Assembly: GCA_030692515.1 (NCBI GenBank)
Contig: JAUXZS010000014.1
Coordinates: 1-64,000, forward strand
Reading direction: 5' to 3'
Source of the DNA: Bacteroidota bacterium
GTDB lineage: Bacteria > Bacteroidota > Bacteroidia > B-17B0 > Aurantibacillaceae
DNA length: 64,000 nt
Shown here: one piece after another, positions 11,921-44,021 of the stretch
Position numbering within the stretch: the first letter of the stretch is position 1
Layout: the number at the start of each line of letters is the position of its first letter
Made by a program: the position numbers and the translations under genes
The notes under the pieces: generated by a model
Databases searched by the model: none
The model's input: the letters and a program-made list of their open reading frames with translations, nothing else
What the model was told of the DNA's origin: nothing

Positions 11921-12066
11921 GCCACGAATTACACGAATTGCACTAAACTATAATTTAAAAAGGGCTGCTTGTTAAACTTAATTTAAAAAGGTGCCACGTC
12001 CCGATAACTATCGGGATACACGAATTGCACTAAACTGTATTTTAAAAGTGCCACGAACTACACACC
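11921..12066. repeat. Left repeat block of the first GxxExxY locus
   Basis: Three partial direct copies begin with GCCACG at 11921, 11993 and about 12051. The first two share CACGAATTGCACTAAACT followed by an AT-rich tail. The first copy's GCCACGAATTACAC (11921-11934) is a perfect 14-bp inverted match to GTGTAATTCGTGGC at 12613-12626, on the other side of the nuclease-like gene. The second copy is interrupted by the palindrome at 11999-12016. Confidence 0.75.
11999..12016. repeat. Perfect 18-bp palindrome inserted in a repeat copy
   Basis: TCCCGATAACTATCGGGA has 8-bp arms around AC. Compared with the copy at 11921, it replaces AAT inside GCCACG-aat-TACACGAATTG. It therefore looks like an insertion into an existing repeat. 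Confidence 0.65.
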
Positions 12067-12101
12067 TTATAAACTAAACAAAATTTAAACAAATAAAACT
12101 T

Positions 12102-12530
12102 ATTTTACAGGAAGAAGAAATATTTACAATTAACGAACCAGAAGGTTTATACAACGTAAATAATTTACTTTATAAAGAGGAAGTTTATTCATTTATTGCT
12201 TGTTGTTTTGAAGTACATAAAAATTTAGGGAAAGGCTTTTTAGAAGTTGTTTACAAAGATGCTTTGAGTTACGAATTGAAACAAAACAACATTCCTTTTG
12301 AAAAAGAGAAAAAGTTTGAGATAAAATATAAAAATATTATTCTGCCTCATTATTATTTTTCTGATTTTATAGTTTTTGACAAAATAATTGTAGAGATTAA
12401 AGCTCAAGAAAGTATTGCCGATACACATTATAAACAATTAATTAATTATTTGGCAGCTTCTAAAATGAAAGTTGGATTATTGGTTAACTTTGGTGAAGAA
12501 AGCTTAAAGTTTAAACGAGTTATTTTATAA
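12102..12530 (+). CDS. GxxExxY-family PD-(D/E)XK nuclease-like protein, start uncertain
   Basis: The frame is open from 12078 to the TAA at 12528-12530 but has no ATG, GTG or TTG before the conserved domain. Possible starts are ATA 12093 or ATT 12102; the only standard alternative, TTG 12264, would delete half the domain. Family homology begins at LLYKEEVYSFIACCFEVHKN and includes GFLEVVY (the GxxExxY signature), then SDFIVFDKIIVEIKA, in which D and E-x-K match a PD-(D/E)XK nuclease core, and ends KMKVGLLVNFGEESLKFKRVIL. It may use a rare start or be a start-lost pseudogene. It is bracketed by inverted repeats. The biochemical function of the family is unknown to me. Confidence 0.7.
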   Translation: MLQEEEIFTINEPEGLYNVNNLLYKEEVYSFIACCFEVHKNLGKGFLEVVYKDALSYELKQNNIPFEKEKKFEIKYKNIILPHYYFSDFIVFDKIIVEIKAQESIADTHYKQLINYLAASKMKVGLLVNFGEESLKFKRVIL

Positions 12531-12548
12531 TAGAATTAGTGAAATTAT

Positions 12549-12790
12549 CATTTATGTCGCAGGCATAAATGATTTATGAAACAAAAGTATAAATACAGAT
12601 TAGTGACAATTAGTGTAATTCGTGGCAAAAATATATAGTGGTAATGTCGAAGACAAAACTATTAAGTTTTTGGGAATAGATTAGTGTTAATTAGTGAAAT
12701 TAGTGGCTTATTGATAATTACTGTAATTTAATGTCGCAGACATAGTAAGTATTATACAACAGATTAGTGTTAATTAGTGAAATTAGTGGC
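12549..12790. repeat. Degenerate ~85-bp tandem repeats right of the first GxxExxY gene
   Basis: A 30-bp element starting AGATTAGTG and ending TTCGTGGC or TTAGTGGC occurs at 12597-12626, 12678-12707 and 12761-12790; the last two are identical. Between them lies the motif ATGTCGCAGGCAT or a variant (12554, 12644, 12731). The whole unit therefore repeats at 81-90 bp. The first motif sits inside a perfect 8-bp hairpin, CATTTATG with CATAAATG (12549-12571). Confidence 0.75.
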
Positions 12791-12822
12791 TCAATAATAT
12801 TACAGCATAGAAATAAAAATCA

Positions 12823-29912: not shown

Positions 29913-32900
29913 ATGAATAGAAATTTTTACAAAATAATATTTATTTTTTCTTTGATTATCTTTTCAGGAAAAAAATTCTATTCTCAAAACCCGGCTGCTT
30001 GTAACAATACTCAAAATCTTTGCACGAATTCTGTTTTCAGTTTTTCGGCCAGTTCAGGTACAGGTTTAACACCTGGCTTAAATGTTAGTAATCCCTTTGG
30101 TAATCCACAAGCTGTAAATGCAGGTTGTATGTTTACTAATGTACCAAACCCACAATGGTTAATGATAAACGTTACATCAAGTGGTAACCTAGGCTTTTCA
30201 TTCGGTGCTTTTGGTTCCGCATTTCCACAAGCTGGCAATTATGATTGGATTATGTGGCCATATTCACCAACAACTTGCGATGATATTTTTAATAACACCT
30301 TACCACCGGTTGCCTGTAATTGGAATTGCACTGGGTCTGGCGGCACAGGCATGGGAACTGTACCTTTTGGGGGCTCTGCCTGCAATTTCCAACCTTCAAT
30401 TCCAGTTTTACAAGGACAACAATATCTTGTTTTAATTACCAATCCAAGTGGCGTAAACACAAATGTTTCATTTGCCAATACAGGCAGTGCAGGTATTTCG
30501 TGTAATCCGCTACTATATCCGAGTCTTACGGCATGCCCAGGACAGTTAGCTGTTTTTACAGGTACATGGGTTAATGCAGTTAGTGGAACTTATACACTTT
30601 ACCCAGGCGCGGTTGTGCAAACAAATCCTTCGTTTACAGTAAGCTCATTGGTTAATCAGGTTTACACGGTTCAGGCACAAGGATTGAATACTTCAGCGGG
30701 TGCAATTGCAGACCAAACGACTTTTACTTTAACAATAAATCCTGTTATACCCATTTCAGTAACTACACCAACTAACTTTTGTTACGGCAGTAATGCCGCT
30801 TTTACTATCAATCCAACTGGTGCTGGGTCTTTTAGTGTTACAGGTCCAGCTTCTCCAACATCTACTTTTGGGACAACATCTATTTCTATTCCAAATATTA
30901 CCACACCAAATATTGGTACCTTTTCTGTAATTGCAAATTACACCAATGGTTGCATTGGCACGCAAACTACACAAGTAAATGTAGCGCCTAATCATTCAAT
31001 TGCAATAAGTACTAACAGCAATGTCTGCCAAGAAGGAATAGTAAACTTAACTTCGTCGATGCCAACTGCCACGGCTTATGCGTGGTCTGGGCCAAGTGCA
31101 TATGCATCAGCTTTACAAAATCCAATAATCAATACAATTCAACCTACTGCATCCGGTATTTACACAGTAAGTTCAAATATTAATTTTAATGGTATTACTT
31201 GCCCAAGAACGAACACAACTCAAATATCTGTAGTTCCAACGAGCACTGTTGCCGTTACACCAAATTTTACATTGTGTCAGGGAGCAAATTTAAATTTAAC
31301 ATCAAGTGCTACTCCAGCTTTTTCTTATTCATGGTCAGGTCCCAGTAGTTATACTTCCGGATTGCAAAATCCAGTGGTTATAGGTATTCTTCCTTCGGGT
31401 GCAGGTAATTATTCTGTTATAGCTTCTTTTTCTAATAGCGCATTAACTTGCACAACAGGTGCTGTTTCTAACGTTTCTGTAGTTGCCACATCACCCGTAA
31501 CAGTTGCTGTTCCAAATAATATTTGTCAAAATGCTACAGCTAACTTAACCGTTACAACTTCTCCTACTCCGTTATCTTATTTATGGTCTGGTCCAAATTC
31601 TTTTACATCTAATTTAAGTAATCCTTCTATTACCAACATACAACCTATTGCCTCAGGTATTTATTCAACAACTGCAACCTACGCTATTGGGTCTGTTAGT
31701 TGTACCACAACTGGTACAAACCAGATTAGCGTTGTTGGAACAAACACTGTTGCTGTTGCGTCGAATTTTACAGTTTGTGAAGCATCCAATGTAAATTTAA
31801 CTTCAAGTGCTACAGGAGCAACATCCTATTCTTGGAATGGACCAGGAGCTTATAATTCTGCGGTTCAAAACCCAACAATTACTTCAATTCTTCCTTCTGG
31901 CTCAGGTAATTATACTGCAACTGCTTTTTTCACTAATGGTTTTTTAACTTGTACAACAAGTGCCCTTGCTAACGTTTCGGTAGTTGCCACTCCTACAACA
32001 ACTATTATTTTTCCAGCAAATATTTGTCAAAACGCCACTGCCAATTTTACGGCATCAGCTGCCGGTGCCATTTCTTATACATGGGCTGGACCAAATAGTT
32101 TTAATTCAACTATTGCAACGCCAACTATTCCAAATATTCAAACTAATGGCTCTGGAATTTATACAACTACCACCATGTTTGCAATGGGAACGGTCAGCTG
32201 CACAACTAATATAACAAATTCGTTAAGTGTTGTTGGCACTAACACTGTGGCCGTATCATCCAACTTTACTGTTTGTGCTGGAGCCAATGTAAATTTAACT
32301 TCAAACGCCACCTCTGCAGTTTCATATTCTTGGAATGGACCTGGAGGTTATACATCTGCACAGCAAAATCCAACAATAAGTGGCATTCTTCCATCAGGCA
32401 CGGGTATATACACTGCCACGGCTTTTTTCTCTAATAGCATTTTAACTTGTACTACATCAGCTGTTTTGAATGGATCTGTGATTCCAATTCCCCCACTAAA
32501 TGTTACCATGACGAATAGTAATATTTGTACTTTTCAAAGCACAACTATTACTGCAACCGGAGCTATTAATTATACCTGGACACCATCTGCAACTTTAAGT
32601 TCTAGTAATGGCGCAAGTGTAACAGCAAACCCATTAGCAACCACGGTATACAGCGTTACAGGTGCTGATGCTAGTGGTTGTTTAAAAACAAACACTTTAA
32701 TGTTAACAGTTAACCCCTTACCAACGTTAACAGCTACAAGTAATACAATGTGTTTGGGAACAAGTGCTTCATTAACAGTTAATGGAGCTGTTGGCTATAC
32801 ATGGACTCCTGCCGGATCTCTAAACAACCCCAACGGTTCAACGGTTACCGCAACACCAACAACAAGCACTATCTATACTATTACTGGAGTAAGTAATAAA

Positions 32901-34106
32901 GGGTGTTCCGGCACAACCACAACTAGCGTTTCTGTAAAACCCTTGCCAGTATTAGCTATATCAAACCATACTATTTGTTCTGGTAATTCGGCAAACATCG
33001 GTGTATTAGGTGCAAATAATTATACTTGGTCGCCAGGTACCGCCTTAAACGCAACTAACATTGCAAACGTTATTGCTAATCCTTTACAAACAATTACGTA
33101 TACTGTTATTGGTAAAGATTTAAATGGATGCGTACAATCAACTATATCAACAGTTGTTGTTAATCCCCTTCCTGTAATTAGCATCACATCACCAAGTGCA
33201 ATTTGTAGGGGTCAAAATGCACTAATGTCGTCAAGCGGTGCTGTAACTTATACATGGAATAATTCTGTCAATACTTCATCTCAATCTGTTAATCCAATTG
33301 TTACAACAACTTATAGTGTAGTTGGCCAAGACGCAAATGGCTGTAGTAATACTGGAACTGTACTTATAAACGTATTTACTCAACCAACTTTAAATATTAC
33401 GGGAACGCCAACAGTATGTGTTGGAAATGCAATAACACTTAGTGCTAATGGAGGGATTAATTATAATTGGAACACTGGTGAAACTACAAATACCATTACC
33501 ATTGAACCACAAGTAAACAGTGTTTATACAGTAAGTTCCGGAATATCACCTTGTAACTCTTCAACAATTTTTGCAGTTACAGTTTATACACCACAATCTC
33601 AAACACCTTTTGCAAATCCATCTACCATTATTTATGGTTCATCTAGTGTAATTTATGCAAATAGTATAGCCGGCAACATATTTAATTGGTCCTATTCCCC
33701 AGATATAAGCTGTAACAGTTGCGAAACGAATACGGTTAGCCCAAATACAACAACTATTTATACAATAACTGCTACAGATAATAATGGTTGCATTGTTACA
33801 AATACAGTTTTAGTACAAGTAGATATACTTTGTGGAGATAATTTTGTTCCATCTGCTTTTAGCCCTAATGGCGATGGTTTTAATGATTTTTGGTGCGTTT
33901 ATGGAAACTGCATTACCACGATGAACTTACAACTATATAATCGTTGGGGAGAAAAAGTTTTTGAGAGTGATAATAAAAATAATTGTTGGGATGGAACCTA
34001 TAATGGTGTAATGCAAAATGACGCTGTTTTTATTTACCAATTAACAGCCATATTAATAAATGGAGAAAAAGTAGTTAAAAAAGGAAATGTAACCTTGAAA
34101 AGATAA
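29913..34106 (+). CDS. T9SS type B sorted repeat adhesin (gliding-motility-associated C-terminal domain)
   Basis: 1397 residues. A signal peptide (IIFIFSLIIFSGKKFYSQ) is followed by a Cys-containing N-terminal domain (about 30-200), a long stalk of Cys-anchored Ig/PKD-like modules, and a C-terminal CHU_C/type B sorting domain with FVPSAFSPNGDGFNDFW, LQLYNRWGEKVFES and GTYNGV. The stalk has about seven modules of ~248 bp then five of ~212-230 bp. Type B substrates are exported by the T9SS and usually need a PorP/SprF partner; one is encoded 46 bp downstream. Likely a surface or released adhesin. Confidence 0.93.
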   Translation: MNRNFYKIIFIFSLIIFSGKKFYSQNPAACNNTQNLCTNSVFSFSASSGTGLTPGLNVSNPFGNPQAVNAGCMFTNVPNPQWLMINVTSSGNLGFSFGAFGSAFPQAGNYDWIMWPYSPTTCDDIFNNTLPPVACNWNCTGSGGTGMGTVPFGGSACNFQPSIPVLQGQQYLVLITNPSGVNTNVSFANTGSAGISCNPLLYPSLTACPGQLAVFTGTWVNAVSGTYTLYPGAVVQTNPSFTVSSLVNQVYTVQAQGLNTSAGAIADQTTFTLTINPVIPISVTTPTNFCYGSNAAFTINPTGAGSFSVTGPASPTSTFGTTSISIPNITTPNIGTFSVIANYTNGCIGTQTTQVNVAPNHSIAISTNSNVCQEGIVNLTSSMPTATAYAWSGPSAYASALQNPIINTIQPTASGIYTVSSNINFNGITCPRTNTTQISVVPTSTVAVTPNFTLCQGANLNLTSSATPAFSYSWSGPSSYTSGLQNPVVIGILPSGAGNYSVIASFSNSALTCTTGAVSNVSVVATSPVTVAVPNNICQNATANLTVTTSPTPLSYLWSGPNSFTSNLSNPSITNIQPIASGIYSTTATYAIGSVSCTTTGTNQISVVGTNTVAVASNFTVCEASNVNLTSSATGATSYSWNGPGAYNSAVQNPTITSILPSGSGNYTATAFFTNGFLTCTTSALANVSVVATPTTTIIFPANICQNATANFTASAAGAISYTWAGPNSFNSTIATPTIPNIQTNGSGIYTTTTMFAMGTVSCTTNITNSLSVVGTNTVAVSSNFTVCAGANVNLTSNATSAVSYSWNGPGGYTSAQQNPTISGILPSGTGIYTATAFFSNSILTCTTSAVLNGSVIPIPPLNVTMTNSNICTFQSTTITATGAINYTWTPSATLSSSNGASVTANPLATTVYSVTGADASGCLKTNTLMLTVNPLPTLTATSNTMCLGTSASLTVNGAVGYTWTPAGSLNNPNGSTVTATPTTSTIYTITGVSNKGCSGTTTTSVSVKPLPVLAISNHTICSGNSANIGVLGANNYTWSPGTALNATNIANVIANPLQTITYTVIGKDLNGCVQSTISTVVVNPLPVISITSPSAICRGQNALMSSSGAVTYTWNNSVNTSSQSVNPIVTTTYSVVGQDANGCSNTGTVLINVFTQPTLNITGTPTVCVGNAITLSANGGINYNWNTGETTNTITIEPQVNSVYTVSSGISPCNSSTIFAVTVYTPQSQTPFANPSTIIYGSSSVIYANSIAGNIFNWSYSPDISCNSCETNTVSPNTTTIYTITATDNNGCIVTNTVLVQVDILCGDNFVPSAFSPNGDGFNDFWCVYGNCITTMNLQLYNRWGEKVFESDNKNNCWDGTYNGVMQNDAVFIYQLTAILINGEKVVKKGNVTLKR
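31020..32500 (+). repeat. Three copies of a ~496-bp two-module unit in the adhesin
   Basis: Odd modules carry NVCQ or NICQNATANLT and even modules carry NFTxC-x-x-xNxNLTS, followed by YSWNGPG and ILPSG. The pair starts near 31020, 31520 and 32020. Units two and three are the most alike, down to SVVGTNTVAV between modules, which indicates recent duplication of a whole pair. Confidence 0.8.
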
Positions 34107-34152
34107 GATTGGAATACATGAAACAAATACTTCGCAATAAAAATAATTGAAA

Positions 34153-35178
34153 ATGAAAAAAACCTATTTCATTATTTTGATGCTGTTGGCTAAAAACATA
34201 TTTAGCCAAGATATTCATCTTACACAATATTTTATAGCGCCTCAAACCATTAATCCTTCAGCTTTCGGTGTTATCAATTCTTTTGAGGCTGGACTTCAAT
34301 ATAAGTCTCAATGGAATGCTTTTACAAAAGGATTTACTACCTACTCTGCATTTATTAATAAACAGATAACAAGTAACAGAAAAGAAAATAAAGGCTTTTT
34401 TTCAGCTGGATTAAATTTCGGTTATGATAAATCAGGAGATGGCAAACTAACAACCATTAGTGGAGGTTTACCTATTAATTATTCTCTAAAATTAAATAAT
34501 AGCCAGTTTTTAACTTCGGGAGTGTCTGTTGGTTTTGCCCAAAAATCATTAACAGGCCTTAATCAAACATGGGGCTCACAGTTTGATGGTTTTAATTTTA
34601 ATTCATCTTTGCCAAATGAAAATAAAAATCAACAATCAATCGTGGCATTAGATGTTGGCGCCGGAATTGCTTTGATAAATAAAAAGAATGGTAAAAAATT
34701 TGCTGTAAATTCTGAACCATCAAATACCTTAGGCTTTTCAGTTGCACATATTAATAAACCAAAATATTCTTTTTCTAGAAACAGTAACGAAAGATTATTT
34801 ATGCGCTTTAATTTATACGAATCGTTTAATTATTGCTTTAATGGCTCGCCCTATTCTATTTCACCATCGCTTATGGTTCAATACCAAGGCAGAGCAAGCG
34901 AAGTTATTTTAGGAACCATGTTTCTTTATCAATCAGGCAGCAATTCATACATTACTGGTATTAATCAATCAAAAACTTTTGGATTTGGGGCATATTACAG
35001 GTTTAAAGATGCTTTTGCATTAAATGCATTTGTGGAAGTGAAAAAAATAATTTTTGGAGCTTCTTATGACTTAAATACTTCTACTTTGCAAAAAACATCT
35101 AAAAGCAGAGGTGGCCTTGAAATATTTATTAAAATAAAAAACGCGAGTCACCTATATAAAGGTTTCGGCAAATGGTAA
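34153..35178 (+). CDS. PorP/SprF-family outer-membrane protein
   Basis: 341 residues from ATG 34153 (a TTG two codons upstream is less likely). Signal peptide MKKTYFIILMLLAKNIFSQ, then the family signature QDIHLTQYFIAPQTINPSAF and GLQYKSQWNAFT. The blocks SAGLNFGYDKSGDGKL and AVDVGAGI-like VALDVGAGIALINKK follow, with a terminal strand RGGLEIFIKI. It directly follows the type B adhesin gene, the conserved arrangement for SprF and its dedicated cargo such as SprB. It probably anchors or escorts that adhesin. Confidence 0.9.
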   Translation: MKKTYFIILMLLAKNIFSQDIHLTQYFIAPQTINPSAFGVINSFEAGLQYKSQWNAFTKGFTTYSAFINKQITSNRKENKGFFSAGLNFGYDKSGDGKLTTISGGLPINYSLKLNNSQFLTSGVSVGFAQKSLTGLNQTWGSQFDGFNFNSSLPNENKNQQSIVALDVGAGIALINKKNGKKFAVNSEPSNTLGFSVAHINKPKYSFSRNSNERLFMRFNLYESFNYCFNGSPYSISPSLMVQYQGRASEVILGTMFLYQSGSNSYITGINQSKTFGFGAYYRFKDAFALNAFVEVKKIIFGASYDLNTSTLQKTSKSRGGLEIFIKIKNASHLYKGFGKW

Positions 35179-35302
35179 GTTAATATATTTTTGATTAACA
35201 TTATTCTAAAACAAAATCCCTTAAATCATGTTTAATAACCATAAACTCTAACAATAATTTTTATCTTTAACCAACAAAAAATATAAACTAAAACAAAACA
35301 AC

Positions 35303-36154
35303 ATGTTACAAAAATTAAAATCATTTACTGCAGCAATTGCAATTACAGCCATTACAACAACAAGTATTAATGCACAATTAAAAGTGCCTGCTCCTAGTCC
35401 ACTACAAACTATAAAACAAGCTTTTGCTTTATCTGACATTACAATTGAATATAGCCGCCCAAGTGCAAAAGGCCGTGTAATATATGGTGATGTAGTTCCT
35501 TTTGGGAAAGTTTGGCGCACCGGAGCAAATGGTGCAACTAAAATTACATTTGGAGAAGACGTTAAAGTTGAAGGAACTGATGTTAAAGCTGGAACTTATG
35601 CGATTTATTCAATCCCAAATAAAGATAGTTGGGAAATAATGTTGTATAAAGATTTGACATTAGGTGGTGATGTTGCCGAGTACAAAAAAGAAAATGAGTT
35701 ACTACGTTTTACTGTTAAACCAACAACAACTTCAGATAAAACTGAAACATTTACTATTGATTTAGCAAACATTACATCTAATACAGTTAAAGTTCAATTA
35801 GTTTGGGAAAAAACAAGAGTATCGTTTAATGTTGTTGCCGACATTGATACTAAAATCATGAAAACGATTGATAACACAATTGTAAAAGATAACAGACCAT
35901 ATTACCAAGCGGCATCTTATTATTATGAAAATGATAAAGACCTTAAACAAGCAGTAGAGTGGGTTGACAAAGCTATTGCTAACAATCCAAAAGCTTATTG
36001 GGTACTTTTATTAAAGGCAAAAATTCAAACAAAACAAAAAGATACTAAAGGCGCTATTGCAACCGCAGAGCAAGTTATAGTTTTAGCGACTGAAGAAAAA
36101 AATGATGATTACGTTGCTATGGCAAAAAAATTAATTACTGAAAATAAAAAATAA
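35303..36154 (+). CDS. DUF2911 exported protein with TPR-like tail
   Basis: 283 residues with signal peptide (AAIAITAITTTSINAQ). The DUF2911 domain (about 25-165) shows DITIEYSRPSAKGRVIYGD, VPFGKVWRTGANGATKI, VKAGTYAIYSIPNKDSWEI and VQLVWEKTRVSF. Residues ~190-283 form TPR-like helices (YYQAASYYYENDKDLKQAVE, AYWVLLLKAKIQ). DUF2911 proteins are common exported Bacteroidota proteins without known activity. It ends at a bidirectional terminator. Confidence 0.92.
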   Translation: MLQKLKSFTAAIAITAITTTSINAQLKVPAPSPLQTIKQAFALSDITIEYSRPSAKGRVIYGDVVPFGKVWRTGANGATKITFGEDVKVEGTDVKAGTYAIYSIPNKDSWEIMLYKDLTLGGDVAEYKKENELLRFTVKPTTTSDKTETFTIDLANITSNTVKVQLVWEKTRVSFNVVADIDTKIMKTIDNTIVKDNRPYYQAASYYYENDKDLKQAVEWVDKAIANNPKAYWVLLLKAKIQTKQKDTKGAIATAEQVIVLATEEKNDDYVAMAKKLITENKK

Positions 36155-36229
36155 CATACTGTCTTTTCGAAGGGAGAATTACTGAGAAATCTCAAACACA
36201 GATTTCTTCTTTTGCAGAAAAGAGTTAAT

Positions 36230-36265
36230 AAAAAAAATCCCGCTAAATTAATAGCGGGATTTTTT
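36230..36265. terminator. Bidirectional terminator
   Basis: AATCCCGCTA and TAGCGGGATT form a 10-bp stem with A and T runs on each side, between convergent genes ending at 36154 (+) and 36264 (-). The stop codon of the symporter gene lies at the stem base. Confidence 0.9.
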
Positions 36266-37961
36266 ATACTTTAACTTTTCTACGATTTATAAACATTTGG
36301 ATAATAAAAGCAAAACCCATCACCAATAAACAGCCAATTACATTTAACCACAAAAAAGCCGTTAGATTTACTATCCAAGCGTAAACAATAAAGGCTTCTG
36401 CAATTAATGCTGCGTAAAAAACTGCCATCCCACCTACTCGCTTCATATAAAAAGCAACTAAAAATATTCCTAAAATTGTGCCGTAAAATAAAGAACCTAA
36501 AACATTTACTGCTTCAATTAAATTTCCTAACCTGCTCGCATAAAAAGCTACTACGATACAAAATAAACCCCAGGCAACCGTAATCCAACGAGAAACAGAT
36601 AAATACTTTTTTTCACTTTCATTCTTCTTAAATATGCGTTTATAAAAATCAACTACCGTTGTAGAGGCTAAAGAATTTAAACCACTCGCGGTAGAGCCCA
36701 TTGCTGCCAAAAAAATAATAGCAATTAAAATGCCAACAACCCCAACCGGCAATTGTTGAGTTACAAAACTTAAAAAGATATAATTAGTATCATTTACATC
36801 TGCCGAAGCATAATTTTTGGTCATTAAGGCTGTTACTTCTTTTTTGATAGCTGTATTTTTTTTATCAGCTGCTTGTACTTTAATTCGAGAAGCATCTATT
36901 TTAATTTCATCTTTAGAATGTAAGGCATTTACTAGTTCATTTACTTCTGTTTGTTTTTCAATATAAGCAATCGTGTATGCTTGTTCTAAATTTTTAAATT
37001 CATCTTTATAAACACTATTTTGTATTCTGTTTACTTCAACATTATTAAAAAAGATGGGAGCTTGATGAAATTGGTAAAATGTAAAAACTAAAACTCCTAT
37101 TAATAAAATAAAAAATTGCATTGGTATTTTAACTAAAGAGTTCATTATTAAGCCAAGTCTGCTTTGTGTAACCGAACTACCAGTTAAGTATCTGCCCACT
37201 TGAGATTGGTCGGTACCAAAGTAAGAGAGTTGAAGAAAAAAACCTCCAATAATTCCAGACCAAATATTGTATTTATTATTTAAATCAAAATGGGTATCAA
37301 TGGCATTTAACTTATTCATTTTACCTGCAATATGCAAAGCATCAAAAAAGGAAACATTCTCAGGTAATAAGTGTATCACCATATATGCTGCTAAAAATAA
37401 ACCGCCAAAAATAATACTCATTTGTAAAACCTGAGTGTACGAAACAGCTTTGGTTCCTCCGTAAACTGTATAGGCAATTACAATTAATCCATTAAAAATA
37501 ATGGTATAAAAAACATCAATATTTAAAATAGTAGACATAATTATTGCAGGTGCATAAATGGTTATACCTGTTGATAAACCTCTTTGCAATAAAAATAAAA
37601 AAGCGGTAAGTGTACGAGTTTTATTATCAAAACGGGTTTCTAAAAATTCGTAGGCTGTATAAACTTTTAGTTTATGAAAAATAGGGATAAACGTTATGCA
37701 TAAAACAACCATGGCTAAGGGCAAACCAAAATAAAATTGCACAAAACGTAAACCATCGCTATAACCTTGGCCGGGAGCCGAAAGAAAAGTAATAGCGCTT
37801 GCTTGAGTTGCCATTACAGATAAACCAACATGATACCAAGGTAATTTTCTATCGGCTAATAAATAACCTTCTATGTTTTTTTGACCACGACTTTTCCATA
37901 TACCATAAAGTATAATAAACAAAAGCGTAATGCTTAATACTAACCAATCAATTAAACTCAT
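36264..37961 (-). CDS. Sodium:solute symporter (SSS family)
   Basis: 565 residues. It begins IDWLVLSITLLFIILYGIWK, then YLLADRKLPWYHVGLSVMAT, QASAITFLSAPGQGYSDG (Na+ site region) and VYGGTKAVSYTQVLQM, all SSS signatures. About 12-13 TM segments. A soluble insertion of roughly 100 residues (about 295-390) is helical and charged (FKNLEQAYTIAYIEKQTEV, then KKNTAIKKEVTALMTKNY) between two TM helices. The substrate is unknown. It overlaps the preceding membrane peptide gene (37958-38050) by ATGA. A PIG-L deacetylase gene is upstream on the same strand, so the substrate could be a deacetylated glycoconjugate, but this is speculation. Confidence 0.9.
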   Translation of the reverse strand: MSLIDWLVLSITLLFIILYGIWKSRGQKNIEGYLLADRKLPWYHVGLSVMATQASAITFLSAPGQGYSDGLRFVQFYFGLPLAMVVLCITFIPIFHKLKVYTAYEFLETRFDNKTRTLTAFLFLLQRGLSTGITIYAPAIIMSTILNIDVFYTIIFNGLIVIAYTVYGGTKAVSYTQVLQMSIIFGGLFLAAYMVIHLLPENVSFFDALHIAGKMNKLNAIDTHFDLNNKYNIWSGIIGGFFLQLSYFGTDQSQVGRYLTGSSVTQSRLGLIMNSLVKIPMQFFILLIGVLVFTFYQFHQAPIFFNNVEVNRIQNSVYKDEFKNLEQAYTIAYIEKQTEVNELVNALHSKDEIKIDASRIKVQAADKKNTAIKKEVTALMTKNYASADVNDTNYIFLSFVTQQLPVGVVGILIAIIFLAAMGSTASGLNSLASTTVVDFYKRIFKKNESEKKYLSVSRWITVAWGLFCIVVAFYASRLGNLIEAVNVLGSLFYGTILGIFLVAFYMKRVGGMAVFYAALIAEAFIVYAWIVNLTAFLWLNVIGCLLVMGFAFIIQMFINRRKVKV

Positions 37962-38050
37962 TTAAAATACTGGGTGAAAAAATAAAGAAGTACAATTACA
38001 ATAACTAAAACCCCAATGACAACTGCGTAAACATTATTCCATTTTTTCAT
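37958..38050 (-). CDS. 30-residue single-TM peptide overlapping the symporter gene
   Basis: The frame encodes MKKWNNVYAV, then a TM helix (VIGVLVIVIVLLYFF), and TQYFK. Two ATGs are in tandem (38048-38050 and 38051-38053). Its TGA (37958-37960) overlaps the symporter ATG (37959-37961) as ATGA, so the two are likely translationally coupled. The positive-inside N-terminus, strongly hydrophobic core and coupling argue that it is a real gene. It may be a small subunit or regulator of the symporter, but I know no named family. Confidence 0.65.
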   Translation of the reverse strand: MKKWNNVYAVVIGVLVIVIVLLYFFTQYFK

Positions 38051-38061
38051 CATTAAAATAT

Positions 38062-38178
38062 TTATTTTGATAGAACACAGATCTTACAGATTAAACAGGT
38101 TTTCACAGATTATTATTTTTCCAATTGAACACAATTTAAACATTTTTTATTTTGATGGAACACAGATATTATAGATTA
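38062..38178. repeat. Left repeats of the second GxxExxY locus
   Basis: TTTGATAGAACACAGAT (38066-38082) and TTTGATGGAACACAGAT (38151-38167) are direct copies, each followed by a TTACAGATTA-like segment. A weaker AATTGAACACAATTT lies between them. Confidence 0.75.
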
Positions 38179-38187
38179 TTTTTTTGA

Positions 38188-38592
38188 TTATTCAATTTCA
38201 CTTTTTAAACATTTACGATCATTTGTAAATATTTTTCTTCTGAACTCTGCTTTTTTTCCAAAATTTAGTAATAATCCAACTTCAATATCGGTAGCTCTTA
38301 AATAATTTAAAAGCTGTAACTCGTTTTCGTGCACTAATACTTCACTCGCTTTTAATTCTAGTATTACAGAATTTTCAACGATTATATCCGCAAAATAATC
38401 TCCAACCAAAAAACCTTTATAATGAACTTTTATCATTTTTTGTGCTTCAGCATCTAATCCTTTGTTTTTTAATTCAAACAACATTGCGTTTTGATAAACC
38501 CTTTCAAGAAAGCCATAACCTAACTTATTATAAACTTCATAATAGGTTTTAATTATTTGCTCAGTTATATTTTCATGCAATAAAGTTTCCAT
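38188..38592 (-). CDS. GxxExxY-family PD-(D/E)XK nuclease-like protein
   Basis: 134 residues, complete, with a good ATG. The signature G27-F-L-E30-R-V-Y33 follows YYEVYNKLGYG. The PD-(D/E)XK-like core is D69 (ADIIV) and E79-L-K81 (VILELKASE), and the C-terminal block is LNYLRATDIEVGLLLNFG. It lies within a same-strand gene run, PIG-L deacetylase to symporter, and both flanks carry inverted copies of a 17-bp repeat. Family members are widespread and patchy. The biochemical role is unknown; nuclease activity is inferred from motifs. Confidence 0.85.
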   Translation of the reverse strand: METLLHENITEQIIKTYYEVYNKLGYGFLERVYQNAMLFELKNKGLDAEAQKMIKVHYKGFLVGDYFADIIVENSVILELKASEVLVHENELQLLNYLRATDIEVGLLLNFGKKAEFRRKIFTNDRKCLKSEIE

Positions 38593-38601
38593 GTAAATTT
38601 T

Positions 38602-38648
38602 ATCTGTGTTTTATCTGTTAAATCAGCTTTATCCGTGTTCAATCAAAC
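38602..38648. repeat. Right repeats of the second GxxExxY locus, inverted
   Basis: ATCCGTGTTCAATCAAA (38631-38647) is the reverse complement of TTTGATTGAACACGGAT and matches the left copies at 15 of 17 positions. ATCTGTGTT (38602-38610) is a second shorter inverted copy. Confidence 0.75.
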
Positions 38649-38655
38649 ATAGTTA

Positions 38656-41148
38656 TTATTTATTCTGTGGTAAACTTAAAAGATTGACAAATAACCTGTA
38701 AGCCCCAGGAACTCCTGCGGGAAGCTCTCTAAAAAAAACTAAGCCAGTATACACAAAATTTCCTTTTCCATATTTACCAATAATTAAACTTCCATCGCTT
38801 GCTTTTTCGTTTGGGTCGTTAATAGAAAATACTGTTTCGTATTGTTTATCAATTTCTGTAGCAAAATAAATACCCCGTTCTTGAATCCATCCATCAAAAT
38901 CTTTGTTTGTAATTTTATTAGGAAAATTTAAAGCTGAATGTTTTTCATTGATGAAATTCACTTCAGCTTTTTCATTAGTTACTCTATCTCTTGAAATAGT
39001 AAATGGATACGGGCCAATATTAGCCTTAACAGGGCCTATACGATTATTAGTATTGTATTGCACAATTAAATTACCGCCGTTTTTTACATAGTCCATTAAC
39101 TTAGAATAATGTATCTGTAAACGATCGTTAGTGTTATAGGCACGAATACCGCATACTATAGCGCTGTATTTCGATAAATCATCATTCAATAATAGCTCAT
39201 CGGTTAAAATAGTTACGTTATAACCTATTTGAGTTAATGAAGCAGGAACGTCATCTCCTGCCCCAGGTATATATCCGATGTTAGTCCCTGATTTTTTTAA
39301 ATCAATATTTATTAGCCCTGCTTCTGCTTTGTATAAAATAAATTGATAAGGAATATGATCATACTCTACCCGCTTAATACTTTGATTAAATGTGGTATTA
39401 TCTGCAGTAATAATTGATGCCTCAAAATTTCCATTTATTGCAGTTTTTTCTGGAGTGATGGTTACCTCAATAATTTTTTCATCACCTTTATTCTTCAAAA
39501 AAATGTTTGGGTCTTTAATAGTTACACTCCATCCTTGAGTAGCTTTAATTTGAAGAGAGGCATTAAAGTTGGCTTCGTTAGTTTTTATAGTTATTTGAAT
39601 TGTTTTAGATGCACCTTCGCTAAATACAAATACTTTATCAGAAACATTAATTGTAACCGGTGGCAAAATTTCAAAAGGACGATAAACTTCACCTTTAACA
39701 GGGTCGGTATATTTATAAACTAAATCTCTAGTGATTTTTAAATTTAAATCCTGAATAGTAATATCAAATACTATTTTTTCTGCCGCATCATTTTCAGGTT
39801 TTCCAATCAAAGAGGGTGTATTAACAGTATAAATTCCAACATCATGTTTTTCATTTAACCAATAAGGATTTGAGTACGGAATATAGGCGGAAATTCTTTC
39901 TTTACGTTTAAAGGTATACAATTCATTTTGCTTTAAATTGAGAACCATTGTAGTATCACTTTGTAAGAATTTTACACTATTTAATTTAACCACATTTGGG
40001 TTACGATTTACAACTTGAGTAATAACTGTTGTTTCTTGTCCGGGAATACCAATATAATCTGCAGAAAACGCTTCTAACCATAATCCTGAGCAAGCAACAA
40101 TCAAATTTTCTGTCTCTTTAATTTTTTGTTTCTTCCAATAATTGAGAGTTCTATTTTGATCATTTAATGATTTTAATTCCTTATAAACCGTCACTAATTC
40201 TTTAATACTATTTTCGGGTGCCTGCGGATTGTATTTGCTAATGCAATTATTAATTAATTTTTGAATTTTTTCAGTTTCTTTAAACTTAGTCCAGTTAGTA
40301 TTTATGCCTTCAAATAAATCTGAAGTAACACTATCCCCTTTCAATAATTTAAAATATTCTAAATTAGAACCTCTTTGTTTACTAGAACCAAAACCTTGGC
40401 TTTTGTGCATCGAACGACTTTCTGCTGCAATTTCGCCGTAACTTTTCCCTAATAGTGGATTAAAAACCCCGACATCAATTTTTAATTGGTTTGGAGCTGT
40501 TGTATTTGTAGTTCCAAAATTAAATGTATTCCAAAAAATACGTTTAGCTTGCCAAACCTCTGTATATTTTAATTGCTCCGGAAATTTTTTTGGATCAGCA
40601 GCAGCATCAAAAGCTTCAACAGCAAGTATTGCAGAAGCAGTATGGTGACCATGACCACCTTCGCCTGTAGTAGGAAAACGACAAATAATAACATCGGGTT
40701 TAAATTTTCGAATAGTAAGAACTACATCAGCTAAAATACTATCCTTGTTCCAAAAAGTAAATGTTTCTTCTGGATTTTTAGAATAGCCAAAATCATTAGC
40801 ACGCGTAAAAAATTGTTCTGCGCCATCTGTTCTGCGAGCAGCTAATAACTCTTGCGTTCTAATTAATCCTAATAATTCACCTTGCTCTTTCCCAATTAAA
40901 TTTTGACCACCGTCGCCACGCGTAATTGATAGGTAACCCGTTCTTAATTTTTTCTCATTGGCTAAATATCCCAATAGACGCGTATTCTCGTCATCAGGGT
41001 GAGCAGCAATATATAAAACACTTCCAACGGTATTTAATTTTTTTAAATTCTGAATAATTTCGGCAGAATTAAATTGAGGATTTATTTGAGAAAATAAATT
41101 TGCAGCTACAAAAAAGGGCAAGGCTAATGCTAATATATATTTGGTCAT
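38656..41148 (-). CDS. PIG-L (LmbE-like) family deacetylase, multidomain
   Basis: 830 residues with a signal peptide (ILALALPFFVAANLFSQ). The N-terminal PIG-L domain has AHPDDE (49-54) and HGHH (166-169), the zinc-binding set of N-acetylglucosaminyl deacetylases. A long middle part is beta-rich (about 390-640; ITIKTNEANFNASLQIK, IEVTITPEKTAI). The C-terminal ~170 residues resemble a glutamine-amidotransferase-like fold (YSAIVCGIRAYNTND, YVKNGGNLIVQYNTN). It is presumably exported and acts on an acetylated amino sugar. The substrate is unknown. It precedes the symporter on the same strand. Confidence 0.88.
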   Translation of the reverse strand: MTKYILALALPFFVAANLFSQINPQFNSAEIIQNLKKLNTVGSVLYIAAHPDDENTRLLGYLANEKKLRTGYLSITRGDGGQNLIGKEQGELLGLIRTQELLAARRTDGAEQFFTRANDFGYSKNPEETFTFWNKDSILADVVLTIRKFKPDVIICRFPTTGEGGHGHHTASAILAVEAFDAAADPKKFPEQLKYTEVWQAKRIFWNTFNFGTTNTTAPNQLKIDVGVFNPLLGKSYGEIAAESRSMHKSQGFGSSKQRGSNLEYFKLLKGDSVTSDLFEGINTNWTKFKETEKIQKLINNCISKYNPQAPENSIKELVTVYKELKSLNDQNRTLNYWKKQKIKETENLIVACSGLWLEAFSADYIGIPGQETTVITQVVNRNPNVVKLNSVKFLQSDTTMVLNLKQNELYTFKRKERISAYIPYSNPYWLNEKHDVGIYTVNTPSLIGKPENDAAEKIVFDITIQDLNLKITRDLVYKYTDPVKGEVYRPFEILPPVTINVSDKVFVFSEGASKTIQITIKTNEANFNASLQIKATQGWSVTIKDPNIFLKNKGDEKIIEVTITPEKTAINGNFEASIITADNTTFNQSIKRVEYDHIPYQFILYKAEAGLINIDLKKSGTNIGYIPGAGDDVPASLTQIGYNVTILTDELLLNDDLSKYSAIVCGIRAYNTNDRLQIHYSKLMDYVKNGGNLIVQYNTNNRIGPVKANIGPYPFTISRDRVTNEKAEVNFINEKHSALNFPNKITNKDFDGWIQERGIYFATEIDKQYETVFSINDPNEKASDGSLIIGKYGKGNFVYTGLVFFRELPAGVPGAYRLFVNLLSLPQNK

Positions 41149-41339
41149 AATGATTTAAAACAAGCTTTGAAGATAATAAATTAGATTTAAAGAAAATTGT
41201 TATTTAAACACCTATCTTAATATTAACAATGTTCCAATAAAAGTAGACTTAGTTGAAACGTCCAATTGAAAGCATAATTTTGAAAGTGTCTTTAAACATA
41301 AGAAACAGTAATTTTGTAGTGTAAATAAACTTAAATAAA

Positions 41340-42206
41340 ATGAAAAATATACTTCGAATAATTGGTTTTGTAGTTTTTAGTTTTAATGTTAGTGCACAAC
41401 TATTAAATGGTGGAATGGAAACCTTTACTTATACAACTAACGATACATTACCAACTGGTTGGATGGCGGAGTCACAATTTAGCACAATACCTGGTAAAAC
41501 AAATGATGCGCATAGTGGCAGTTCGGCATTTGTCATCAACGGTTTTTATTACTATTTGCCCGGAATGCTTGTTAACGGAAATCTTAATCCGGCATCTTTT
41601 TTGTTTGATTGGGTAAAAGCTGGAACTCCGATTTCAACAAAGCCAACTTCATTAAAAGGATTTTATAAATATACCAATGTTGTGAGCGGAGATTCGGCCT
41701 TGGTGAAAGTATTGTTAAAAAAACACAATACTTCTACAAATAAATTAGACACTATTGGTTTTGGGATAGCAAAACTAAGGCCTGAAGCAGCTTATACAAA
41801 TTTTGAAGTGGCTATTACAGACTATTCTGTAGGTGTGCAACCAGATTCTGTTGTAGTATTTTTTATGTCTTATGACTACCTAAAAGGTACTCAACCAACT
41901 TGTGTAGATAATTATTGCAGGTATTTATATATTGACGACTTAATTTTAACAAACACAGTTGGAATTAAAGAAAATAGAAGGGAAAATGAAATTGATTTTT
42001 TTTACTCGGCAAACGAAATTCATGTAATCAATAAAAATAGAAAAGAAGTTACAATCGATATCTATTCGATTGAAGGAAAACTAGTTTTGCAAAAAGAAAT
42101 TATAGAATCTGAAAACAGAATAGATTGTTCGGAACTTCAAAAAGGTGTTTATTTTGTTAGGTCAAAACAACTAATAGGGGAAAATTATAAGTTTTTAAAA
42201 GATTAG
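41340..42206 (+). CDS. Secreted protein with T9SS type A sorting domain
   Basis: 288 residues. Signal peptide (IIGFVVFSFNVSAQ), then a beta-sandwich-like N-terminal domain (LLNGGMETFTYTTNDTLPTG, AHSGSSAFVING, LYIDDLILTNTVGI), as in proteins that begin NGGFE..W. The last ~70 residues are a type A CTD with VTIDIYSIEGKLVLQKEI and LQKGVYFVRSK. Likely exported by the T9SS and cleaved or anchored at the surface. A TAATTTTG box at 41309-41316 is a plausible -7 element. The gene converges on rluF with a 4-bp stop overlap. Confidence 0.85.
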   Translation: MKNILRIIGFVVFSFNVSAQLLNGGMETFTYTTNDTLPTGWMAESQFSTIPGKTNDAHSGSSAFVINGFYYYLPGMLVNGNLNPASFLFDWVKAGTPISTKPTSLKGFYKYTNVVSGDSALVKVLLKKHNTSTNKLDTIGFGIAKLRPEAAYTNFEVAITDYSVGVQPDSVVVFFMSYDYLKGTQPTCVDNYCRYLYIDDLILTNTVGIKENRRENEIDFFYSANEIHVINKNRKEVTIDIYSIEGKLVLQKEIIESENRIDCSELQKGVYFVRSKQLIGENYKFLKD

Positions 42207-42904
42207 TTTAAACCTGCTAATAGTTCTGTCAATTCAGCCTCAGTCAAATCGCGCCACTCGCCTACTTTTAACTTCTCTAATTTAATATTCATTACTCTTA
42301 CGCGCTGCAATTTTATTACCTGATAATCAAACATGGTACACATCCTACGTATTTGCCTGTTTAAACCTTGTGTTAAAACTACCCTAAAAATTCGTTTCGC
42401 ATTTGGTTCGAGACTAACCGTACAAGGTTTGGTTTTAACTTTCTCGCCAAGTAGTAATACACCTTCTGAAATTTCCTTTAAAAATTGTTTTCTAACCGGA
42501 AAATTTAGAGTAACAACATATTCCTTTTCATGCTCGTATTTGGAGTTAGCGATTTTATCAATTATTTCGCTATGATTGGTTAAAAGAATTAATCCTTCAG
42601 ACTCTTTATCTAATCTACCAACAGGATATACATTTTGAGGATGTCCAACAGCATCAATAATATTGTTTGCTATTTTCTCAGATGTACATTCAATTCCCTT
42701 GGGTTTATTATAAACAATATATGTTGGAACATAATCTCTTACTTCTAACTCCTTACCATCAACTAAAACTTTATCGCCTTCTTTAACGGTTGTGCTAATA
42801 GTAGCTACTTTACCATTTACTAATACTTTTTTCTCGTCAATTAATTCGTTTGCTTTTCGTCTTGAAATAAAACCAGATTGCCCAATGTATTTATCAATTT
42901 TCAT
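42203..42904 (-). CDS. rluF: 23S rRNA pseudouridine synthase RluF-like
   Basis: 233 residues. An N-terminal S4 RNA-binding domain (MKIDKYIGQSGFISRRKANE) precedes the RsuA-type catalytic domain. The catalytic aspartate is D99 in GRLDKES (96-102), and GLNRQIRRMCTMFDYQVIKL is the C-terminal signature. The RluF subgroup modifies U2604 of 23S rRNA in E. coli; the subgroup call rests on overall pattern and the QIRRMC motif. Monocistronic. Confidence 0.88.
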   Translation of the reverse strand: MKIDKYIGQSGFISRRKANELIDEKKVLVNGKVATISTTVKEGDKVLVDGKELEVRDYVPTYIVYNKPKGIECTSEKIANNIIDAVGHPQNVYPVGRLDKESEGLILLTNHSEIIDKIANSKYEHEKEYVVTLNFPVRKQFLKEISEGVLLLGEKVKTKPCTVSLEPNAKRIFRVVLTQGLNRQIRRMCTMFDYQVIKLQRVRVMNIKLEKLKVGEWRDLTEAELTELLAGLN

Positions 42905-42992
42905 TCTGCAAATATACTGTATATAAAAATCTTTCAGTTGAAATAAGTAAATTTATATCTCTCTATATTAGCTTAACAAATAAATCACTAAA

Positions 42993-44021
42993 ATGAGTTC
43001 TCGCAGAAATTTTCTTAAAGCCTCGGGTATACTAACTGCTGCCGCGGTAATGCAGCCTTCTATAACTTTCTCACAAATACCCGAAAATGGTTTGTTAAAA
43101 ATAAAACCTAAAGCCTTAAAGTCGGGAGATACAGTTGCCATTACCTCCCCGGCCGGAGCTGTTTGGGATAGCAACCAAATCGAAATATTTGCAACTATTT
43201 TAAAAAGCTTTGGATTTAATGTTGTTTACGGAAAAACCTTAAAAGAAAAGTTTGGCTATTTTGCAGGCTCAGATGAGTTAAGAGCAAACGAGTTAAACGA
43301 TTTTTTTGCTGATAAAAACATTAAAGGGATATTTTGCATGAAAGGTGGTTGGGGTTGCGCAAGAATTTTAGATAAATTAGATTACAAATTAATAAAAGAA
43401 AACCCAAAAGTATTAATAGGTTTTAGTGATATTACAGCACTTTTATTAGCAATTACTTCAAAAACAAACTTAATTACTTTTCATGGTCCCGTGGGAAATT
43501 CGGGATGGAATGAATTTACAAAATCAGTTTTCACAAACGTAACAATGGCCCAAAAATCATTTATTTTTCCTGAAAACCCATTTGGAGAAGATAAAATTGT
43601 AACCATAACCTCAGGTAAAGCCAGTGGTGAATTATTTGGAGGAAACTTAACTGTTTTAAGTTCTTTAATAGGAAGTAGTTATTTACCACATTGGAAAAAT
43701 AAAATTTTATTTTTAGAAGAAGCTAAAGAAGAACCGTATAGTATTGACAGAATGCTGACTCAATTAAAATTAAGCGGGGTTTTAGATGTGATTAGTGGAT
43801 TTGTATTTGGCAAATGCGCAAAGTGTTTAGCAGAAGAACCTTTAAAAGCTTTTACGTTTCATGAAGTAATTATGCAACATATACAACCATTAAAGATTCC
43901 TGCGTTTTATGGCGCAATGATTGGGCATATAGAAAACAAATTAACTGTGCCATTAGGAATACATGCCACAATAGATGCTGATAAGGGAATTATTTTATTA
44001 AACGAAAGTTCTGTAGTTTAA
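42993..44021 (+). CDS. S66 LD-carboxypeptidase family protein
   Basis: 342 residues. The N-terminus SSRRNFLKASGILTAAAVM is a twin-arginine-type signal, so this is probably exported folded. The S66 elements are GDTVAITSPAG, MKGGWGCARILD, nucleophile S145 in IGFSDITAL, the Glu of FLEEAKEEPY (E242/243) and H312 in GHIENKLTVP. LD-carboxypeptidases remove the terminal D-Ala from recycled murein tetrapeptides in the cytoplasm. A Tat-exported form is less usual and suggests periplasmic murein trimming. Confidence 0.88.
   Translation: MSSRRNFLKASGILTAAAVMQPSITFSQIPENGLLKIKPKALKSGDTVAITSPAGAVWDSNQIEIFATILKSFGFNVVYGKTLKEKFGYFAGSDELRANELNDFFADKNIKGIFCMKGGWGCARILDKLDYKLIKENPKVLIGFSDITALLLAITSKTNLITFHGPVGNSGWNEFTKSVFTNVTMAQKSFIFPENPFGEDKIVTITSGKASGELFGGNLTVLSSLIGSSYLPHWKNKILFLEEAKEEPYSIDRMLTQLKLSGVLDVISGFVFGKCAKCLAEEPLKAFTFHEVIMQHIQPLKIPAFYGAMIGHIENKLTVPLGIHATIDADKGIILLNESSVV

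Follow-up and report, generated by a model that had tools for sequence, protein, structure and literature searches.

In REPtrons, a small enzyme (TnpAREP/RAYT) goes together with palindromic repeats (REP) that have co-evolved with it, some of the palindromes being imperfect (PMC8266576). The intervening sequences (IVS) of 23S rRNA are short, carry inverted repeats and one small open reading frame (ORF) in the sense of the host transcript, with short tandem repeats beside the ORF, and PMC4990558 calls them selfish. The BrickBuilt MITE of Porphyromonas gingivalis is a gene-free, intergenic element with inverted, IS5-like ends and internal repeats with a unit of 23 nt (PMC4596501). The TAACTGA repeats are also among the nearest systems that we found.

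Here we analyse a stretch of 64,000 nucleotides (the window) from a Bacteroidota bacterium, in which a GxxExxY gene lies between a PIG-L and a symporter gene. The cassette formed by this gene and its repeats is probably an autonomous, REPtron-like mobile element, made of one PD-(D/E)XK nuclease gene between two inverted arms. Like the gene of a REPtron, which is flanked by its REPs, the gene of this element is flanked by inverted repeats (the family also shows direct matches), and gene-free copies of the repeat occur in the genome. A small enzyme with palindromic repeats and many gene-free copies are common features (PMC8266576). However, REPtrons encode a HuH (Y1) enzyme, whereas the enzyme here is a PD-(D/E)XK protein and a HuH gene is absent, so that the element is not a REPtron by membership; its arms, moreover, are made of tandem units of ~9 bp, their word varies by protein clade, and one class recurs in several phyla. 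Likewise, inverted repeats around one small sense-oriented ORF and short tandem repeats recall the 23S rRNA IVS as described in PMC4990558, but the protein has a different fold, with no S23 four-helix bundle, and the site lies between two protein genes; being neither in 23S rRNA nor a carrier of S23, the element is not an IVS. With MITEs such as BrickBuilt, which comes from a member of the Bacteroidetes, it has in common intergenic elements that lack a gene and combine inverted ends with internal repeats, whereas the gene-bearing relative here is a PD-(D/E)XK nuclease element. Units of this type, with a different repeat word for each protein lineage, are found in many bacteria and appear to be mobile elements of a kind that has been overlooked. 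In the literature that we searched, GxxExxY was named only in passing, PDDEXK_3 and six arm words were absent, and we recognised no description of the element and found none of a single-gene PD-(D/E)XK transposition system.

The cassette and its site in related genomes

A preliminary description of this DNA had reported three 17-bp repeats around the GxxExxY gene, two direct and one inverted, and all of them lie exactly where it placed them: TTTGATAGAACACAGAT at 38066-38082 (+), TTTGATGGAACACAGAT at 38151-38167 (+) and TTTGATTGAACACGGAT at 38631-38647 (-). They are above chance: a pattern built from the three that tolerates at most 2 mismatches matches the window 3 times, where 0.13 matches would be expected, and none of 100 shuffles reached this number. 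These 17-mers are only the outer parts of longer arms, in which ACNGAT-like units continue inward at ~9-10 bp; the inner copy of the left arm (38146) is less regular in unit spacing than the other arm copies. A search for the exact 17-mers alone proved too narrow, since the repeat is a grammar of units. The element and its host flanks comprise the following features:

38066..38112, + strand: left arm, 3' of the gene; TTTGATAGAACACAGAT followed by the units ACAGAT, ACAGGT and CACAGAT, spaced by ~9-10 bp
38146..38178, + strand: end of the left arm repeated further inward; 33 nt with 91% identity, 85 bp from start to start; a partial tandem duplication
38188..38592, - strand: GxxExxY / PDDEXK_3 nuclease gene; 134 aa, with G27, E30, Y33, D69, E79, K81, Q93 and Y97 present
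38601..38647, - strand: right arm, inverted, on the 5' side of the gene; TTTGATTGAACACGGAT, then GCTGAT, ACAGAT and ACACAGAT units
38066..38647, no strand assigned: whole element, with the outer inverted pair as its limits; 582 bp, flanked by the stop of PIG-L and the start of the peptide
37958..38053, - strand: membrane peptide, host flank; 31 aa, MMKKWNNVYAVVIGVLVIVIVLLYFFTQYFK, its stop overlapping the symporter start
36264..37961, - strand: sodium:solute symporter (PF00474), host flank
38656..41148, - strand: PIG-L family protein (PF02585), host flank; 830 aa

The genes for the PIG-L protein, the membrane peptide and the symporter form a run on the minus strand, as previously described, and the cassette separates the first from the second. 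The junctions of relatives show a short frame similar to the 31-aa peptide. At 36216-36281, an inverted repeat of 30 nt with 6 nt between its arms forms a terminator-like hairpin that separates two convergent genes. An Rfam search of positions 36000-42000 gave nothing at gathering score, and the sub-threshold matches at 36216-36281 probably correspond to this hairpin.

The cassette had been proposed to have inserted between the PIG-L and symporter genes, a proposal that would be refuted if the two were never adjacent elsewhere, or if relatives kept the gene at this site with no repeats. Among 40 genomes of the same genus, the symporter was found in 22 and PIG-L in 26; they are adjacent by coordinates in 20, the window's included, and apart in G036 and G013. 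We retrieved the 19 other junctions and inspected all 20. Fourteen are direct junctions, where the PIG-L stop comes shortly before the start of the membrane peptide, with little between; three (G000, G021 and G026) have the gene between ACNGAT arms, both gene-bearing relatives retaining the arms, contrary to the case that would refute insertion; two have a gene-free palindrome of another class and one has half a palindrome. The palindrome of G007 is of the form ACCACAAAG...CTTTGTGGT, that of G035 is degenerate, and G019 has one half of such an element. None of the 14 empty junctions contains a chain of units, and single unit-like words occur in 7; with a homing endonuclease gene, it is in such empty alleles that one would look for the enzyme's own recognition site, which insertion would interrupt. 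Insertion is thereby supported, although only one of the two signs suggested for it was found: the short direct junction exists in relatives (14/20), but we saw by eye no target-site duplication at the PIG-L site, where the junctions of relatives have diverged. In G026, the reading frame of the GxxExxY copy (G026:C140; L063, L135) is disturbed in its last third; this copy is a decaying element.

A tree of this site, built from PIG-L plus symporter for 14 genomes (with a named outgroup that is not one side of a branch), pairs G026 with G007 (support 100/100) and G021 with G006 and G019 (100/99). The occupied genomes do not form one clade, the states are interleaved, and 3 changes are needed. 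Since the deeper branches are empty, absence looks ancestral, which points to insertion within the genus rather than to an ancestral gene having been lost. In the protein family, the GxxExxY copies from the three occupied genomes form one group (support 99), and either one old insertion with later losses or replacement, or repeated insertion by one lineage, is possible. That these three genomes belong to one genus and that their genes group together would also suit an ordinary, vertically inherited gene with incidental intergenic repeats; we consider this very improbable in view of the 14 direct junctions among 20, of the arm statistics given below, and of same-class arms next to the gene in metagenome-assembled genomes (MAGs) labelled as several other phyla.

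Arms, gene direction and arm classes across GxxExxY loci

GxxExxY genes are present in 50 of the 60 genomes searched, with up to 20 matches in one. We compared 192 loci: 3 from the window's own genome, the best 80 of 111 named loci, 29 from relatives, and 80 further places drawn from among the relatives' matches listed. The named loci were ranked by likeness to the window protein, so that class A (see below) is over-represented, and this set overlaps that of the relatives at least in part, L004 probably being the G021 site and L063 the G026 site. An ORF was found in 190 of the 192 loci (none in L011 and L020), and 189 were used for flank comparisons, one having flanks that were not long enough. 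Neither the flank-likeness nor the chain test uses predefined patterns; the class patterns were chosen once the flanks had been inspected. An automatic unit finder, used at first, picked up so many A/T-rich words that fixed patterns took its place, and a first regular-expression scan for chains of at least 3 units labelled few loci outside the clade of the window gene and missed the window loci themselves.

When the upstream flank was compared with the reverse complement of the downstream flank of its own locus, 55 of 189 loci scored at least 40. Cross-locus pairs reached this score in 22 of 1512 cases and far-flank pairs in 1 of 178; the median scores were 31, 20 and 19, respectively. Likeness in direct orientation is also raised, reaching 40 for own flanks in 42 of 189 loci (median 21) against 23 of 1512 cross-locus direct pairs, and at scores of at least 60 the direct own-flank matches (29) exceed the inverted ones (11). 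By locus, 41 show inverted likeness only, 28 direct only and 14 both; whole palindromes on both sides of the gene, as at L010, would give direct matches. Of 189 loci, 29 have a chain of units (at least 4 copies of one 7-mer at 8-12 bp) in the upstream flank and 41 have one in the downstream flank. The corresponding numbers are 0 of 184 and 2 of 180 for far flanks, and 0 and 1 of 189 for shuffled ones. Units follow one another mostly at 9 bp (215 cases) or 10 bp (92 cases) in class A, at 9 in B and K, and at 8-10 in C and E. Class-A arms, of up to about four ~9-bp units, have the grammar GAACACNGAT-NNNACNGAT-NNNACNGAT-NNNCACNGAT, and 44 of 54 four-unit chains are spaced 9-9-10.

The direction of the gene is strongly biased. 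Among 165 loci with a neighbour called on both sides by a mechanical ORF rule (25 of 190, with no called neighbour on a side, were left out), the gene has the same direction as both neighbours in 131 (+,+), is opposed to both in 4 (-,-), and has mixed neighbours in 30. Random insertion into co-directional pairs would be expected to give equal numbers, and 131 versus 4 has a binomial probability of 6e-34, with loci that are not all independent. Selection for read-through expression is the simplest account of this bias; the alternative is a step at the level of RNA. The bias, 131 of 135 co-directional contexts, would indeed suit an RNA-level element like those in 23S rRNA, co-transcribed with the operon, whose arms pair in RNA so that a host RNase excises it or the hairpin controls the mRNA, the protein being secondary or acting on RNA. 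The Coxiella IVS also has a sense-strand ORF, heptameric repeats and excision by RNase III, according to PMC4990558. Overall, we regard such an element as unlikely here, if still to be reckoned with; against it stands, in this region, that nothing at 36000-42000 reached an Rfam gathering score, and further evidence on both sides comes from the palindromes and from the protein, considered below.

Classes of arm could be assigned to 151 of 190 loci: A ([AG]CNGAT, 80 loci), E (CRCNGAG, 20), K (CRCAAAG, 16), C (ACATAG, 12), B (CRCDAAT, 8), J (CRCTAAG, 7), M (YATGAT, 5) and three singletons; the 39 loci that received no class were left out of the tree counts. In a far control, the same patterns labelled 6 of 138 usable rows, all as A. 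On the protein tree, arm class changes 21 times, whereas 300 shuffles needed 67.7 changes on average and never fewer than 63. When classes were shuffled only within genomes, so that the host is constant, there were 19 changes against a mean of 47.4 and a minimum of 35 (87 loci, 41 genomes). More than one class was found in 24 of the 25 genomes having more than one labelled locus and, for instance, the three GxxExxY copies of the window's genome are of classes B, A and C. The third of them is:

C54:26941-27270: third GxxExxY copy of the window's genome (L002); a third repeat word, ACACATAGAAACATAGA upstream and TATGTATCTATGTGTTT downstream

Chains of class A lie within 500 bp of the gene in records labelled Bacteroidota, Ignavibacteria, KSB1, Delongbacteria, Cloacimonadota, and Roseiflexus and Thermoflexales, both of the Chloroflexota, where mis-binning of single MAGs is possible. 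As judged from sequence comparison, the arm motif follows the protein clade and not the host. The statement in the preliminary description that the repeats of the two window loci differ agrees with this, the first locus (12180) having the word CAC[GT]AATT. The arms of that locus (11922-12799; class B) are arrayed, with two upstream copies 87 bp apart (11930 and 12017) and three downstream copies at 81-83 bp (12579, 12660 and 12743).

These patterns suggest selection on the arm word, although linkage might suffice to tie arm class to protein clade with no recognition. On the tree, the end of the unit changes between T and G only 3 times and CGC alternates with CAC 10 times. A recognition code, relating protein residues to repeat letters, was looked for and set aside, as Val121 goes with CGC in about 3 of 4 independent pairs, too few to count. 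A gene that regulates itself, with the arms as operators for its own protein and the scattered arms as targets of a nuclease that serves the host and has no present mobility, would also explain why arm class follows protein clade and why many arms have no close partner. Nonetheless, unit chains lie on both sides of the gene and not on the promoter side alone, a genome may have anything from 0 to 20 copies, and near genomes differ in what occupies the PIG-L site, where a motif of another class was also found; we consider self-regulation improbable.

Gene-free palindromes and single arms

Across 198 genomes of this bacterial class, the class-A pattern was matched 415 times and its reversed version 4 times. 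The gene of the window clade was found in 19 of these genomes at E<=1e-38, a cut that also admits L095 (class R) and the unlabelled L178 and L183. The class-A motif occurs in all 19 genomes with this gene versus 42 of the 179 others; because the gene brings its own arms, a count of three or more matches is the fairer comparison, and it was reached by 15 of 19 gene-bearing genomes versus 19 of 179 others, the genomes in both comparisons not being independent. Many class-A motifs and no window-clade gene at E<=1e-38 were found in G184 (47), G140 (19), G085 (17) and G156 (14). Genomes that are rich in motifs and show no gene may have lost it, may carry one too divergent to pass the cut, or may be incompletely assembled, and these four are possible orphan repeat populations.

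Convergent class-A pairs, of which we measured by hand the 24 among the places listed, have outer lengths of 63-193 bp in 21 cases and of 449-568 bp in 3, and the three long ones enclose the gene; most gene-free palindromes are of about 80-130 bp. An inverted partner within ~195 bp (score of at least 30) accompanies 22 of 60 motif places in seven genomes, compared with 0 of 60 for the upstream control. Several motif places below this score resemble decayed partners, and most of those in G229 and G176 show none. The window's genome has two gene-free palindromes at C66:605478-605720 and more single or degenerate copies elsewhere. At this place (L152, C66:605200-606000), the two class-A palindromes lie within a tandem duplication of ~155 bp that includes flanking DNA.

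The palindromes fold well as single strands or RNA (n=32, median z -5.4, 26 of 32 below -3), in keeping with an element that acts in RNA. The pairing of arms gives a mixed answer on this point. In 58 class-A pairs, the free base of unit 2 matches less often between the arms of one element than between arms re-paired across elements (0.16 vs 0.28), and 396 of 400 re-pairings gave at least the observed value, which is what a preference for a mismatch would produce. For the free base of unit 1, there is no clear excess over re-paired arms (0.45 vs 0.36; 39 of 400). From the standpoint of a perfect hairpin, the first-unit free base is identical in 16 of 40 against 14.35 expected. By contrast, at most of the other free positions the arms of one element agree slightly better than re-paired arms do, for instance at the R of unit 1 (0.83 vs 0.74) and at linker base 3 (0.74 vs 0.65; each 7 of 400), as arms that pair in RNA would; arms with no partner within ~195 bp, common in G229 and G176, argue against this. 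As the counts are mixed, they show neither a kept stem nor its absence, and both folded arms with regular mismatches and binding as a duplex are possible. Together with the flank matches in direct orientation, these counts led us to give the mobile-element readings a slightly lower weight, and the RNA-level one a slightly higher weight.

The nuclease might instead break arm DNA with no transposition at all, and ectopic gene conversion and slippage where the DNA is broken would then be the sole means by which the repeats spread. Such amplification would leave tandem palindromes and partial duplications, as seen at L006, L010, L017, L025 and L152 and in the 85-bp duplication in the window, but homology alone does not explain arrival at a repeat-free site such as the PIG-L junction, and the 14 empty junctions contain no unit chain and only, in 7 of them, single unit-like words; there is little probability, in our view, that amplification is the whole explanation.

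The nuclease, a possible route of movement and a second family

The GxxExxY protein matches TIGR04256 with 130.2 bits (cut-off 35) and PF13366 with 135.7 bits (cut-off 22), the only families at E<=0.001 in a profile search of the window protein that gave no DDE, HuH, serine or tyrosine transposase family, as a classical insertion sequence would. An alignment of 103 proteins shows no variation at G27, E30, Y33, D69, K81 and N110 and conservation of at least 90% at E79, Q93 and Y97. The D-(x)9-ExK site is complete and is accompanied by the QxxxY motif of RecB/Cas4-type nucleases. A search by sequence retrieved no solved relative (best E 0.12). A structure model (pLDDT 92.0, pTM 0.85) was compared with Foldseek, which ranked SSO0001, presumably a Cas4, first (E 1.2e-4), followed by LHK-Exo (9.3e-4) and lambda exonuclease (3e-3). 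VIA-align gave Z scores of 9.3 for SSO0001, 8.1-8.2 for several restriction-endonuclease-like proteins, 6.5 for Hjc and 5.8 for the fdxN-element excision controlling factor, of which those of 8 or less may reflect a common fold only. The protein thus keeps the PD-(D/E)XK site and is predicted to have a Cas4/exonuclease-like fold. It has the same fold and catalytic layout as the Cas4/RecB-like nucleases and exonucleases (SSO0001, LHK-Exo, lambda exonuclease) but, unlike them, it is a single domain of about 130 aa, and we saw no CRISPR or helicase gene among the ORFs at 32000-44000, three of which were scanned against families. Models of anti-phage defence gave only one weak Cas4b match (E 0.012). 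In tblastn searches (E<=1e-5), the gene was found in none of 50,697 phage records and in 8 of 72,556 plasmid records. Metal-nuclease sites of this kind belong mostly to DNA enzymes, and the presence of one in the GxxExxY protein speaks against an element that acts in RNA.

For the autonomous mobile element that we favour, the sequences would fit a route in which the nuclease recognises its own arm units, either as a folded-out hairpin or as a duplex, and cuts at them, so that the unit and the gene-free palindromes would be moved or copied into intergenic gaps, with host repair completing the event. Insertions in the direction of the host operon would survive best because the gene would be expressed by read-through from it. 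At the PIG-L site, the element would have landed between the PIG-L stop codon and the start codon of the membrane peptide. It is the recognition of the arms, their cutting and the movement that we would attribute to the nuclease.

Genes of the four-helix-bundle family TIGR02436, which we take to be that of the 23S IVS proteins, are present in 36 of the 41 genomes searched. Likeness between own flanks in inverted orientation reached 40 in 5 of 29 loci (L275-L304, one of 30 being too short) against 0 of 174 cross pairs, with medians of 28 and 18, a small sample that serves as a lead only. Short periodic words were seen by eye in these flanks. The genes show the same directional bias as the GxxExxY genes, with (+,+) in 25 cases, (-,-) in 1 and (+,-) in 3. 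More broadly, and tentatively, since we would put its chances somewhat below even, the GxxExxY units may be a large, undescribed class of autonomous mobile elements, with one PD-(D/E)XK nuclease and a lineage-specific word of ~9 bp, that shed gene-free palindromes and single arms, and the S23/four-helix-bundle genes may be a second family on the same architecture, of which the 23S IVS would be the best-known case.

If this reading holds, the GxxExxY family gains a function and many intergenic repeats gain a source, and the clade-specific pairs of nuclease and repeat are a natural set in which to study how a small PD-(D/E)XK protein selects DNA. The parallel with the four-helix-bundle genes would, in turn, bear on the nature of the 23S intervening sequences.
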